From Capnocytophaga canimorsus (GTDB lineage Bacteria; Bacteroidota; Bacteroidia; Flavobacteriales; Flavobacteriaceae): a DNA stretch of 64,000 nucleotides. How positions within the stretch are numbered: position 1 is the stretch's first letter; the number at the start of each line of letters is the position of its first letter. Both the position numbers and the translations under genes were made by a program. The notes beneath the pieces were generated by a model, which was given only the letters and a program-made list of their open reading frames with translations, had not been told where the DNA came from and made no database searches. Positions 6,292-59,529 of the stretch are shown one piece after another. The DNA lies in assembly GCF_002302565.1 (NCBI RefSeq), contig NZ_CP022382.1, positions 1 through 64,000 of the forward strand, read 5' to 3'.

Positions 6292-7254
6292 TTACAAACG
6301 CACCTCTAACAATTCCATATTTTGAGTTTCAACGTAGAGTTTTCCGCACGCTGCAGGGAATAAAACCGTTTCTCCACAATTGATTTCAAGCGTAGTGCTT
6401 CCGTCGGAAATTTTACCATTTCCTTTAACACACATATAAATGTGGAAAGAATCTTCCGAAGCGATTTCTTTATGAAAATTAGCGTCGAGTTTTAAATAAT
6501 TAGTAATAAAATACGGACAGGACACCATAGCATTAGTGGTATTCTCTTGCCGATTGTAGGTAACTTTGAAATCATCTTTTTTCTGATAATCAATAGCATC
6601 TAGTGCTTGTTCGGTATGTAATTCCCTCAAATTACCATTTTTGTCCTTCCGATTAAAATCGTACACTCTATAAGTAATATCGCTAGTTTGTTGAATTTCA
6701 GCAATGATGATTCCTGCTCCTATGGCGTGTACCTTTCCAGTATTGATGAAAAAGGTATCGCCCTCGCTTACCGACTCGTAATTCATAATTTCAGTAAGGG
6801 TACCATCACTTAAATGCTGTTGATATTCTTGGCGAGTAACATCTTTATTGAAACCTACGATAAGGCGGGCATCGGGGTCGGCTTGCATTACATACCACAT
6901 TTCAGTTTTTCCAAAGGAATTATGCCTTTGTTTAGCCAAAACGTCATTAGGGTGTACTTGTATGGAAAGGTCTTCACGAGCATCAATAAATTTAATGAGA
7001 ATAGGAAATTCCTTACCAAAACGCTCATAAACACGTTTGCCAAGCAATTCATTAGGATACATCTCTATAAGTTCTTGTAAAGTTTTTCCTTGAAAATTTC
7101 CGTTAGCCACTACGGAAACATCTCCAGGCACTGCCGAAACCTCCCAACTTTCACCTGTAATCTCATTTTCAATAGGTTTATTAAACCAAGTTTTCAATTT
7201 AACTCCCCCCCAAAGACGTTCTTTAAGTATAGGAACAAATTTAATAGGATACAT
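6292..7254 (-). CDS. manA: Mannose-6-phosphate isomerase, class I
   Basis: Zinc-dependent cupin isomerase interconverting mannose-6-phosphate and fructose-6-phosphate, feeding GDP-mannose and glycan synthesis. Metal-site segments are visible: IQVHPND and TEMWYVM in the first half and GKVHAIGAG in the second. The open frame extends to 7317, but family members begin at the MYPIKFVPILKERLWGG stretch, so the ATG at 7254 is chosen; the extra 21 residues upstream look like untranslated AT-rich DNA. That gives 320 residues, normal for the short bacterial form. Confidence 0.93.
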   Translation of the reverse strand: MYPIKFVPILKERLWGGVKLKTWFNKPIENEITGESWEVSAVPGDVSVVANGNFQGKTLQELIEMYPNELLGKRVYERFGKEFPILIKFIDAREDLSIQVHPNDVLAKQRHNSFGKTEMWYVMQADPDARLIVGFNKDVTRQEYQQHLSDGTLTEIMNYESVSEGDTFFINTGKVHAIGAGIIIAEIQQTSDITYRVYDFNRKDKNGNLRELHTEQALDAIDYQKKDDFKVTYNRQENTTNAMVSCPYFITNYLKLDANFHKEIASEDSFHIYMCVKGNGKISDGSTTLEINCGETVLFPAACGKLYVETQNMELLEVRL

Positions 7255-13913: not shown

Positions 13914-15320
13914 ATGAAAACATATGATGTTGTAGTGATAGGTTCAGGTCCTGGTGGTTACGTAGCGGCTATTCGTGCTGCTCAATTGGGGTTTAAAACC
14001 GCAATCATTGAGAAGTACGCTACTTTGGGCGGAACGTGCCTTAACGTGGGATGTATCCCTTCCAAAGCCTTGTTAGATTCATCGCATCACTACGAAGATG
14101 CTCTTAAACATTTTGAAAGTCACGGCATTGAAATCTCTGGAGAAATCAAAATGAATCTGGAGAAAATGATTGCCCGAAAGCAATCGGTAGTAGAACAAAC
14201 TTCCGCTGGGGTTAAGTTTTTGATGGATAAAAACAAAATAGATGTTTATCAAGGATTAGGTAGTTTTGCTGATACCACGCACGTAAAGATAACTATGAAC
14301 GATGGTTCATCACAGCAAATAGAAGCTAAAAAAATTATCATTGCTACGGGTTCAAAACCAGCGTCGTTACCTTTTATTACTGTTGATAAAGAACGAATCA
14401 TTACTTCTACAGAAGCTCTTAAAATGAACGAAGTCCCTAAACATTTGATTGTTATTGGAGGAGGGGTTATCGGTTTGGAATTGGGACAAGTTTATCGCCG
14501 TTTAGGTGCTGAGGTTTCTGTTGTAGAATATATGGAGGGTATTTTGCCTACTATGGATACATCTTTAGGAAAAGAACTGACAAAAATACTTAAAAAACAA
14601 GGATTTAAGTTTTATACGAGCCACAAAGTAAAAGAAGTATCTCGTAAAGGAGAAAAAGTAATAGTTAAAGCTGATAATAAGAAAGGGGAGGAAATTGCTT
14701 TGGAAGGTGACTACGTATTGGTTGCTGTGGGCAGACGTCCTTACACCGAAGGGTTGAATTTGCAAGCCGCTGGAGTGAAAACTGATGAACGAGGCAGAGT
14801 CGTTGTCAATGACCATTTACAAACCAATGTACCTAATATTTATGCCATAGGCGATGTTGTTCGTGGGGCAATGTTAGCTCATAAGGCTGAGGAAGAAGGC
14901 GTTTTAGTTGCCGAATATTTAGCGGGTCAGAAACCTCATATGGATTACAATTTGATTCCTGGGGTAGTATATACTTGGCCAGAGGTAGCCTCGGTAGGAA
15001 AAACCGAAGAGCAACTGAAAACCGAAGGAATTCGCTATAAAACAGGACAATTCCCAATGCGAGCTTTAGGACGTGCACGTGCAAGTATGGATACTGATGG
15101 TTTTGTTAAAGTTTTAGCAGACCCCACAACTGATGAAATACTAGGTGTTCATATAATAGGAGCACGTGCTGCCGATATGATTGCCGAAGCTGTTACTGCA
15201 ATGGAATTTAAAGCCAGTGCTGAAGATATTGCACGTATCAGCCACGCTCACCCAACTTTTACCGAAGCCATTAAAGAAGCAGCTTTAGCTGCGACTGACA
15301 ATAGAGCCATTCACGTGTAA
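13914..15320 (+). CDS. lpdA: Dihydrolipoyl dehydrogenase (E3)
   Basis: 468 residues, full length for the FAD-dependent E3 component of 2-oxo acid dehydrogenase complexes and the glycine cleavage system; it reoxidises dihydrolipoamide with NAD+. Visible: FAD-binding GSGPGGYVAAIRAAQLG near residue 10, redox-active disulfide GGTCLNVGCIPSKALL, NAD-binding GGGVIGLELGQVYRRLG, FAD motif IYAIGDVV, and the C-terminal catalytic HAHPTFTE with His-Glu dyad. No E1/E2 genes adjoin, so it probably serves several complexes. Followed by a terminator. Confidence 0.96.
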   Translation: MKTYDVVVIGSGPGGYVAAIRAAQLGFKTAIIEKYATLGGTCLNVGCIPSKALLDSSHHYEDALKHFESHGIEISGEIKMNLEKMIARKQSVVEQTSAGVKFLMDKNKIDVYQGLGSFADTTHVKITMNDGSSQQIEAKKIIIATGSKPASLPFITVDKERIITSTEALKMNEVPKHLIVIGGGVIGLELGQVYRRLGAEVSVVEYMEGILPTMDTSLGKELTKILKKQGFKFYTSHKVKEVSRKGEKVIVKADNKKGEEIALEGDYVLVAVGRRPYTEGLNLQAAGVKTDERGRVVVNDHLQTNVPNIYAIGDVVRGAMLAHKAEEEGVLVAEYLAGQKPHMDYNLIPGVVYTWPEVASVGKTEEQLKTEGIRYKTGQFPMRALGRARASMDTDGFVKVLADPTTDEILGVHIIGARAADMIAEAVTAMEFKASAEDIARISHAHPTFTEAIKEAALAATDNRAIHV

Positions 15321-15344
15321 TTTTGCAATCTTTTTATATTAAAG

Positions 15345-15383
15345 ACAGGGAAACAAGCTTAAGTTTTGTTTTCCTGTTTTTTT
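15345..15383 (+). terminator. Terminator of lpdA
   Basis: Twelve-base stem (15345-15356 with 15366-15377, one G-T pair) closed by a nine-base loop and followed by a run of seven T. Confidence 0.85.
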
Positions 15384-15464
15384 ATAGTTTGATTTGCCTC
15401 CTATAAAAATAGATAGTTAAGTGTTTGATTACTAATTATTTTTTTGTATTTTATACTACAAAGC

Positions 15465-15513
15465 TCATTTAATCTTTTTAATCTTTCAATCATTTAATCT
15501 TTGAATCAACTAA
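15465..15513 (+). repeat. Degenerate TTAATCTTT-type short repeats
   Basis: Four imperfect copies of an 8-10 nt ATTTAATCTTT-like unit in a row, upstream of the phase-variable candidate. Low-complexity DNA; no function evident. Confidence 0.5.
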
Positions 15514-15532
15514 AAATTTTAACATCTTAAAG

Positions 15533-15563
15533 TTTGTTAATGCTATAAGAGTTTTTATATTTG
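15533..15563 (+). promoter_or_regulatory. Promoter P1 upstream of repeat-bearing gene
   Basis: TTTG 15533-15536, 19 nt spacer, TATATTTG 15556-15563. It would start transcription shortly before the ATG at 15585. The upstream TTG at 15561 is part of the -7 box and is unlikely to be the start codon. Confidence 0.65.
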
Positions 15564-15584
15564 CTCCGGATACCAACTTTTACT

Positions 15585-16859
15585 ATGAAAACTCACATAG
15601 AAAACTTGCATAACTCACTCAATTTGTGTATCTTTGCTTTGCAAAACGCAACGCAACGCAACGCAACGCAACGCAACGCAACGCAACGCAACGCAACGCA
15701 ACGCCTTTCTTACCCCTTAATTAAAAATCTTCTCGCGCACGTATATACTTTTTTAGCATGGAATAGAACTTATTTAAATAAGACACCTGAAGGACAATAT
15801 CTATTAAGGTTGTATCGCTCTACAATGGAAGGATATGGGATTTTTAGCTCTAATTTTTTAAAGGCTAACTATTACGTAGAAAAGGGAATGTTAGAAGAAA
15901 GTAAAAATGAAATTTTCAATCATTTTTTCAGAAGAGGGAATCAAGGCATTTATGATTGTCTGTTATCAGATATGAATTATTGTGAAGATAATTTATATAG
16001 TAGTTTTAAACAATTGTTGATGGAACAATCTTTTATAGATGTTAGTGTAAATCCTGCTTCGGACTGGAAATTTTCAGATAAAGAAGATGAGATAGTAGTA
16101 ACCATTAACAATCGTTCTGATATAAAATTAGAAAATGTTCGCTTGTTTCTTTGTTTGCATTATACAGATATGTATAAGGATGAATACGACGTAATAAAAA
16201 CATCAGCTAAAAATATAATAAATCCTCACGAAAAGATAGAGTTAGCTCCTATAAAATTAGAATATAATGGTAAAAAATATAATGATATTACACGTGTGAG
16301 AGTTATTGCTATGACAGATGATAAAATTTGTTGGGTAGACGATGCTGAATATAAACAAAATCACGCTCTGAATATTTCCAATAATTTACAATATGCAAAA
16401 AACAAAATTGTAAATGAAAAAAGAGAAGCCTTTTTAAAAGATTTTTCTTTAACAGCAGATAAATTAAAAACAATACTAGAAGAAACTATTGGAATACAAG
16501 GAGGAGAGAAAAAGTCGGATTCTTCCGTTAGTTGGTACTCTTGGAATGGAGTAAAAGAAGTGGGGTCTTCTATTTCAAGTTTGTGGAGAGAATCTGATGA
16601 AAAATTGAAAATAGAGCTTCCTCGAATATTAACATTAATAGATCCTGTTTTTTCTATTTATGAATTACAAGATAAGGATAGAGGCATACTACCTAAAGAA
16701 AGCTATTTAGCCGGTTCAAATATTCGATTGAAGTTTGACTATGAGCCTAAAGAAGGAGAAATTATTCCTCTATACATTTATAGTGACTTTGTTAATTTTA
16801 AAATAAACCTTGCCTTTAAAGAGAATAATCCAATTATAAAGAATATAGAAGTACTGTAA
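15585..16859 (+). CDS. Unknown protein, putatively phase-variable through AACGC repeats
   Basis: About 424 residues from the ATG at 15585. Residues 21-40 are four NATQR units, encoded by twelve AACGC repeats; the frame is open through them only because 60 nt is a multiple of three. After the repeat comes a helical stretch and then beta-rich regions (about residues 145-260 resemble a CARDB-like fold: VVTINNRSDIKLENVRLFL; a second beta region is at the C-terminus). No signal peptide, no membrane segment and no known family recognised. Codon use is more AT-rich than in neighbouring housekeeping genes, which suggests accessory origin. An alternative is initiation after the repeat, for example at the in-frame ATG at 15825. 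Convergent with the SprF-like gene, sharing a terminator. Confidence 0.6.
   Translation: MKTHIENLHNSLNLCIFALQNATQRNATQRNATQRNATQRLSYPLIKNLLAHVYTFLAWNRTYLNKTPEGQYLLRLYRSTMEGYGIFSSNFLKANYYVEKGMLEESKNEIFNHFFRRGNQGIYDCLLSDMNYCEDNLYSSFKQLLMEQSFIDVSVNPASDWKFSDKEDEIVVTINNRSDIKLENVRLFLCLHYTDMYKDEYDVIKTSAKNIINPHEKIELAPIKLEYNGKKYNDITRVRVIAMTDDKICWVDDAEYKQNHALNISNNLQYAKNKIVNEKREAFLKDFSLTADKLKTILEETIGIQGGEKKSDSSVSWYSWNGVKEVGSSISSLWRESDEKLKIELPRILTLIDPVFSIYELQDKDRGILPKESYLAGSNIRLKFDYEPKEGEIIPLYIYSDFVNFKINLAFKENNPIIKNIEVL
15606..15636 (+). promoter_or_regulatory. Possible promoter P2 immediately before the AACGC repeat
   Basis: TTG 15606-15608, 20 nt spacer, TATCTTTG 15629-15636. Transcription would begin near 15643, at the edge of the repeat (15645). 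This offers a second model in which the repeats form the very 5' end of the mRNA rather than coding sequence. Confidence 0.5.
15645..15704 (+). repeat. Pentanucleotide microsatellite (AACGC)x12
   Basis: Twelve perfect tandem copies of AACGC. With twelve units the frame from 15585 to 16859 is intact. Loss or gain of one unit puts ribosomes into a frame that stops at TAA 15718-15720 or TAA 15722-15724, just past the repeat. Such arrays change length by slipped-strand mispairing. Confidence 0.97.
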
Positions 16860-16869
16860 TTTAAAAATA

Positions 16870-16899
16870 AAAACCGAAAGCATTTCGCTTTCGGTTTTT
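16870..16899. terminator. Bidirectional terminator
   Basis: Perfect 12-base stem with core ACCGAAAGC/GCTTTCGGT and a five-base loop, A-run on one side and T-run on the other; sits between two convergent genes. Confidence 0.9.
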
Positions 16900-16931
16900 A
16901 TTTTGCAGTATATAAGCTAAAACAACCTGCA

Positions 16932-58887: not shown

Positions 58888-59529
58888 AATTTTATATTTT
58901 TTATAGTTAAACAATTGTATTTTTAATTTTTTATCAAGGATTTTTATTTTAGCAAGTCACTTTTTTATTTTCCGTACTTACTTTTTAATTTTCTACTAAA
59001 ATAAGTATTCATTCCGTACTTTCTTTTGTATTTTCCGCTTTTACTTATTTATTTTTTACACTGACTTATTCTTTTTCCGCTATTGCTTTTATGTATTTTA
59101 TAATGACTTTTAATTATTTATAATTTACTACTTAGATTTTGTTACTTTATCCTTTTAACTTTATACTTTATCCTTTTAACTTTTAACTTGTGACTTGGAT
59201 TTTGTTACTTTATCCCTTTAACTTTACCCTTTATCCTTACCTCTTGCAACTTATCAGTTACTTTTGCTGTCAAAGTTAGATATTTAGGATTTATTTTCCT
59301 AATTTTTGGAAAAGATTTTTTATGGATTTTTAATTGACTATGAGAATTTTAAGAAGATGTTAGAATTTTTGCTTTTATTGAAAAAAAAATAAAATAGAAA
59401 AAATAAATAATTTTTGTGATAATAAATGAAGTTAGAGAAAAAAGTCTGTGTACTAAAGCCTTATGGTTAATGAGTTTTAACTACTTTAATCCTAATACTG
59501 AAAAGGTTTACTATTTTTCTATATCATTG
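58888..59529. other. Long AT-rich spacer with degenerate repeats
   Basis: About 640 nt without a gene. From 58940 to 59260 the plus strand is T/C-rich and built from variations of ACTTTTTATTTT and TTTTAACTTTATCC; a clear 33-nt direct repeat is listed separately. The remaining part up to 59529 is plain AT-rich DNA. Confidence 0.65.
59131..59226 (+). repeat. 33-nt imperfect direct repeat
   Basis: Copies at 59131-59163 and 59194-59226, identical at 31 of 33 positions and starting CTTAGATTTTGTTAC and CTTGGATTTTGTTAC. The start-to-start distance is 63 nt, and the 30-nt gap contains further partial copies of TTTAACTTTATAC. Confidence 0.85.

Follow-up and report, generated by a model that had tools for sequence, protein, structure and literature searches.

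The 64,000-nucleotide stretch of Capnocytophaga canimorsus DNA considered here (in the following, the window) contains, at 15645-15704 on the forward strand, a perfect array of twelve AACGC units, which had been pointed out in the initial annotation and is confirmed by TRF (100% matches, score 120). TRF gave 43 rows for the window, and the single one scoring above 120 is an imperfect 63-mer in two copies at 59130-59252 (score 176), part of a set of overlapping tandem repeats in an AT-rich segment at 58959-59252. In the whole genome, one contig of 2,414,275 bases, runs of three or more AACGC units are found at 15645-15704 alone. The array and its surroundings comprise the following features:

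15341..15381, + strand: terminator-like hairpin behind the upstream gene (one found by the scan, shuffle mean 0.5)
15533..15563, + strand: promoter box P1 (TTTG 15533-15536 ... TATATTTG 15556-15563), 5' of the leader ATG
15585..16859, + strand: fused open reading frame (ORF) of 424 aa, with 59 leader-derived codons followed by the C-terminal half of a 730-aa protein
15606..15636, + strand: promoter box P2 (TTG 15606 ... TATCTTTG 15629-15636), within the leader ORF
15645..15704, + strand: array (AACGC)x12, from TRF and a genome-wide pattern count
15705..15753, + strand: leader 3' flank, conserved and with homology to Capnocytophaga felis, not followed by a terminator
15754..15761, + strand: putative deletion junction, 8 nt aligned to neither side
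15762..16859, + strand: C-terminal half of the 730-aa protein (residues 366-730), including the stop codon

As the AACGC unit lacks T, no stop codon can occur within the array, which encodes the pentapeptide NATQR in each of the three frames. The frame of the ATG at 15585 crosses the array and is open up to 16859. That it would be open only at multiples of three copies, as originally proposed, agrees with the series computed for 9-15 copies (open at 9, 12 and 15; closed at 10, 11, 13 and 14), and the two other frames, said to stop just after the repeat, do so 13 and 17 nt behind the array. Thus, the array lies within an ORF that is open at certain copy numbers only, as in a coding-frame contingency locus. 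The second promoter box that had been described, TTG 15606 with TATCTTTG at 15629-15636, is also present and ends 8 nt 5' of the array, and both P1 and P2 recur in homologous leaders; TAnnTTTG is given as the Bacteroidetes promoter consensus in the accessible part of PMC7366714. The hairpin at 15341..15381 indicates that the leader is a transcription unit separate from the upstream gene. A hairpin scan found no intrinsic terminator behind the window array, and Rfam, at the gathering score, gave zero matches in the window, with chance matches only for 15300-16900.

The fused reading frame

The locus had been taken for an intact new gene with an N-terminal repeat of its own and a product of no known family. 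This is not borne out: the alignments show leader homology up to 15753 and gene homology from 15762, and on this evidence the window ORF is a deletion fusion of the leader with the C-terminal half of a conserved 730-aa Bacteroidota protein. A protein search with the window ORF returned 800 proteins at E <= 0.001, and, among the matches listed (the best 120 of 800), most are about 720-747 aa long and the others shorter. No Pfam family scored above the cut-off with the window ORF, nor did any Pfam or NCBIfam family with a full-length relative. Sequence matches to solved structures fall mostly within the N-terminal, TPR-like half of the 730-aa protein; a fold search with the C-terminal half gave weak matches only (TM-score about 0.2 over the query), and the predicted structure of this half (pLDDT 74.7) has helices followed by two beta domains.

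One of the matches, P0002 of C. canimorsus (730 aa), is listed at 100% identity and 84% query coverage, and comparison of the sequences by eye shows one residue differing in the shared part. Only residues 348-730 of P0002 match this genome; residues 1-347 have no match anywhere in it, so that a full-length copy was not found. In C. felis, the C-terminal half is 94% identical over residues 366-730 and belongs to a full-length gene (L036:3906-6098), which is preceded at a distance of 1.3 kb by an array of its own, (AACGC)x11. Gene neighbours differ between the two loci: in the window we take them to be an lpd-like gene (upstream) and a PorP-like gene, and in C. felis, presumably, ychF-like and typA-like genes.

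A second record of the fusion is available as P0001, a protein of 411 aa in a cluster of five members, which begins with the same fusion and equals the window product over residues 1-336, array included, hence with 12 copies. Differences between the two are found at residue 337 and, of the final eleven residues of P0001, at ten. Since P0001 carries the same fusion, an assembly slip of a single genome appears an unlikely origin. The C-terminal end of P0001, residues 401-411, is altered and comes earlier, and may mark an insertion or another break.

Related leaders in Capnocytophaga

By sequence, the window array is a member of a family of Capnocytophaga leaders, in which a promoter, a start codon, usually a second promoter box, a pentamer array, an intrinsic terminator and a gene follow one another, the unit of the array being AACGC, AGCAC or AACAC. 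Four or more units of AACGC are found in 7 of 20 Capnocytophaga genomes and four or more of AGCAC in 6 of 20, with (AACAC)x9 in one further genome (G003); homologous leaders with arrays of any of these units were recognized in 11 of the 20. (AACGC)x5 occurs in none of 394 genomes from other Bacteroidota genera, and a mixed-unit pattern of five was found in two of 299 genomes of the bacterial family, both from Capnocytophaga (which accounts for three of the 299), and in none of the remaining 296. A model of the P2 box (R1) has matches in 17 of the 20 genomes, some of the weaker ones being ordinary promoters; most matches weaker than about 1e-4 were left out of the reading of loci. R1 matches at L292, L295, L296 and L297 are promoters without an array, the last being a P2-like box found in the present genome at the SRP RNA gene (G000:C1:2074539-2074578). 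Loci L304-L315 repeat loci already counted.

An ATG open into the array is present in all 21 leaders with upstream sequence, the window included. A P2-like TAnnTTTG box lies at most 45 nt from the array in 19 of the 21, and 19 of 21 also have a further TAnnTTTG box 5' of the ATG, no more than 240 nt away from the array. No box lies between ATG and array in L181 and L182, two leaders that do possess an array, an ATG and a hairpin. L180, in C. felis, no longer has a TAnnTTTG box 5' of its ATG, and an inverted repeat with CAGGCTGAGCGAAGTCGAAG occupies the usual place of P1 (about 6480-6560, 5' of the array). As the P2 box is common to AACGC and AGCAC leaders, that is, to loci with different units, it seems that one pentamer unit has replaced another at a single site. 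Behind the array, a hairpin with a T-rich tract was found in all 17 other leaders scanned (-20.9 to -34.3 kcal/mol; a count made without a shuffle control). From the hairpin to the gene (400 nt being scanned where the start codon was unset, at L179, L181, L182 and L287) no TAnnTTTG box was present in 15 of the 17, L181 and L182 being the leaders with a box behind the hairpin.

The proteins encoded downstream are diverse. One family of 156 aa has 36 matches in 12 of the 20 genomes; 30 of its loci were taken, three of them without an alignment, and among the 27 read an array lies upstream in eight, a remnant in one and none in 18. For the 156-aa protein, single-sequence structure prediction gave a low-confidence model (pLDDT 59). 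A second family of small proteins follows L285, L286, L289 and L316, the gene behind L286 looking interrupted; an outer-membrane beta barrel (PF13505) follows L290, and the products behind L179, L291, L293 and L294 appear, from their N-termini inspected by eye, to be lipoprotein-like or secreted. Behind L287, no ORF of at least 90 aa was found within about 1 kb. A mobile or dispersed element was considered and rejected: wherever the 3' side is readable, L287 excepted, array and flanks recur in the role of a leader, with a gene following in the same orientation, and no element ends were noticed in reading these loci. A known RNA family was likewise rejected as the identity of the leader: DUF805b RNA motifs (RF02914) occur in six of ten other array-bearing loci scanned (L178, L179, L180, L181, L182 and L184), with none in the window, and are not part of the leader, and Rfam has no match in the window.

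Leader frame and copy number

The stops of the three frames behind the array are not placed at random with respect to the hairpin. In 15 of 16 arrays, L301 being the sole exception, one of the frames ends past the start of the hairpin or no more than 12 nt before it, and the remaining two end 17 nt or more before it; dinucleotide shuffles gave a mean of 6.46, and none of 2000 reached 15. With one array per family, the pattern is found in 11 of 11 (shuffle mean 4.41, 0 of 2000), and with alternative family representatives in 10 of 11 (mean 4.31, 3 of 2000); the loci are partly related and not independent, a kinship that the one-per-family set meets only in part. Because the limits had been chosen after the distances were known, they were varied, and for 30 pairs of limits in each of two locus sets at most 5 of 2000 shuffles matched the observed count. 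With limits taken from Streptococcus gallolyticus (4 and 28 nt), 11 of 16 arrays show the pattern, the shuffle mean being 2.94 (0 of 2000), and with one array per family 8 of 11 do, the mean being 1.99 (1 of 2000).

Excluded from this comparison were L289, L302 and L303 (two copies or none), L291 and L237 (array masked by N), L176, L177, L183, L185, L284 and L288 (contig ending inside the array) and the window, which is without a hairpin; L178 and L179 were retained, their copy number being a lower limit that is not used. L316, outside the 16, has the same pattern, with stops at +1, +14 and +117 and the hairpin at +44. The frame actually set by the array could be read in 15 leaders and is long in two (L180 and L298) and short in 13. 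The long frame of the C. felis leader ends in a stop codon that shares bases with the start codon of the gene behind it (ATGA). A conserved leader peptide was considered and rejected, the differences in the long frame being spread evenly over codon positions with no third-position excess; a frame not conserved as protein suits a leader that needs translation only.

The comparison of copy number among records that the initial annotation had suggested shows a difference in C. felis: the leader of strain KC07070 has 11 copies and is in the long frame, and the record of P0123 has 10 copies and is in the short frame (88 aa of leader translation, 0 mismatches). Within C. felis, one unit separates the short from the long leader frame. 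P0121, from a metagenome-assembled genome of C. felis, has five copies by hand count of residues; P0125 (C. stomatis) agrees with 10 copies of a leader that has 12 in G019; P0127 (C. canis) would have 5 copies, its sequence matching the flank of L316 (at least 15 copies) save for 1 mismatch; and P0128 (C. cynodegmi) fits 5 copies with 6 mismatches to L285, which has 10. That the window locus itself switches, as had been suggested, agrees with the one-unit variation of the homologous C. felis array; its own two records (window and P0001) have 12 copies each, which, as far as two records go, speaks against it. Draft contigs end inside the arrays at L176, L177, L178, L179, L183, L185, L284, L288 and L316, and short-read comparisons of strains will therefore often miss the copy number; that several arrays are masked or end a contig in draft assemblies hinders counting and proves nothing.

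A candidate attenuator and its alternatives

The array is probably the switch of a phase-variable leader that works by slipped-strand, translation-dependent attenuation. RNA started at P1 would carry a short leader ORF running into the pentamer array; five not being a multiple of three, the gain or loss of a unit by slipped-strand mispairing, which we would expect to take place also in culture, would shift the ribosome's frame on the 3' side of the array. Two of the three frames would end early, leaving the downstream intrinsic terminator free to fold and the next gene OFF; in the third, the ribosome would move up to or through the hairpin, folding would be prevented and the next gene would be transcribed (ON). 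The slipped-strand frame switch originally envisaged is in keeping with the frame rule and the unit change in C. felis, but since in intact leaders a terminator stands behind the array and the gene is a separate one, attenuation is favoured over a frame switch within the downstream protein. A deletion in the window would have removed the terminator and set the leader, in the long frame, before the C-terminal half of the 730-aa gene. With the hairpin lost, attenuation cannot work there, and the switch would now decide only the translation of the fused polypeptide, open at 12 copies. Several observations count against attenuation: just two of the 15 readable leaders are in the long frame; RNA started at P2, if made, would be without the leader ATG, for which the model gives no account; both fusion records have 12 copies; L181 and L182 have a box behind the hairpin, L287 is without an ORF and the gene behind L286 looks interrupted; and the array is present in just eight of the 27 upstream regions read for the 156-aa family.

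Plain phase variation of a coding frame, with the repeat number deciding only the synthesis of the protein begun at the leader ATG and the hairpin having no part, would explain the window sequence as it stands, one open frame with no terminator; it is unlikely for the family, in which the ORF through the array is short, the long frame has no third-position excess, and a hairpin and a separate gene lie behind the array. That leader ORF and hairpin form a small gene of their own, the next gene being served by a promoter of another type, is quite improbable: the scan is blind to such promoters, and L181 and L182 do have a TAnnTTTG box behind the hairpin, but 15 of 17 leaders have none, the leader peptide is not conserved as protein, and the position of the stops relative to the hairpin is beyond chance. 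Slightly less credence still is given to an action of the array at the 5' end of a P2 transcript, through altered initiation, RNA stability or spacing. A P2-like box close to the array in 19 of 21 leaders, and a like box at the SRP RNA gene, speak for it; against it, L181 and L182, complete in array, ATG and hairpin, lack the box between ATG and array, and this explanation would not predict the stop pattern.

A different question is whether the window copy is debris, the fused ORF being a useless by-product of the deletion, which would be compatible with attenuation in the rest of the family. We give this only a little less than an even chance, and the fused protein is, as a serious possibility, a functionless remnant. 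Terminator and N-terminal half are both missing in the window, P0001 is altered over its last eleven residues and ends early, and 12 copies are present in both records; on the other side, the C-terminal half is open and one residue off the intact C. canimorsus protein, and the fusion is in frame and present in a second record, neither of which shows that its product is used.

Attenuation through repeat number thus remains the preferred reading of the family, and, by a small margin of belief, we also hold that the genus has a whole set of such attenuators, one leader type standing before unrelated genes with the pentamer unit exchanged between loci, which would be the first of their kind described in Bacteroidota. 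If so, each cell would draw its own combination of ON and OFF genes without a recombinase, and the window would show how an attenuator that loses its terminator becomes a switch of the coding frame, acting on a new gene fragment. A second, multi-locus case in oral and animal-associated Bacteroidota would suggest that repeat-driven attenuation evolves more than once. The leaders also provide a directly testable set of switches in a genus with dog-bite and oral opportunists, in which the stop-codon rule would let long-read genomes tell ON from OFF.

Coding-frame contingency loci with simple repeats, in which slippage shifts the reading frame, are well known in Neisseria, Haemophilus, Moraxella and Campylobacter. 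The window copy would now work in the same manner, whereas in intact Capnocytophaga leaders the array lies outside the gene that follows. Within the phylum, the accessible text of a 2025 review of phase variation (PMC11868660) describes invertible promoters and genes of Bacteroides, which are also phase variable but depend on DNA inversion by a recombinase and not, as proposed for Capnocytophaga, on repeat number; that text mentions neither attenuation, nor leader peptides, nor Capnocytophaga. In the literature searched (the listed titles and starts of abstracts, subscription papers and preprints being mostly outside), no report of repeat-switched attenuation in Capnocytophaga was found, and repeat-driven attenuation is demonstrated in one system, a Firmicute, as set out in the accessible part of PMC3894217.

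In that system, as the same part of the paper by Danne et al. (2014) reports, (GCAGA)n in the leader ORF of pil1 and pil3 of S. gallolyticus determines whether the ribosome comes to a stop at a premature terminator or well away from it. Where the leader stop of an isolate precedes the terminator by 28 nt or more, the profile is heterogeneous and mostly low, and isolates that stop at the terminator or pass it are mostly high (PMC3894217). Measured against this description, Capnocytophaga belongs to another phylum, uses other units and has many unrelated genes downstream; most of its leaders contain an extra promoter box within the leader ORF, and the window copy is without a terminator. In both, a pentamer array lies in a short leader ORF with a terminator before the gene, the frame sets the leader stop far from or at the hairpin, and copy number varies between isolates (PMC3894217), and from this likeness we infer that the Capnocytophaga leaders may work by the S. 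gallolyticus mechanism.
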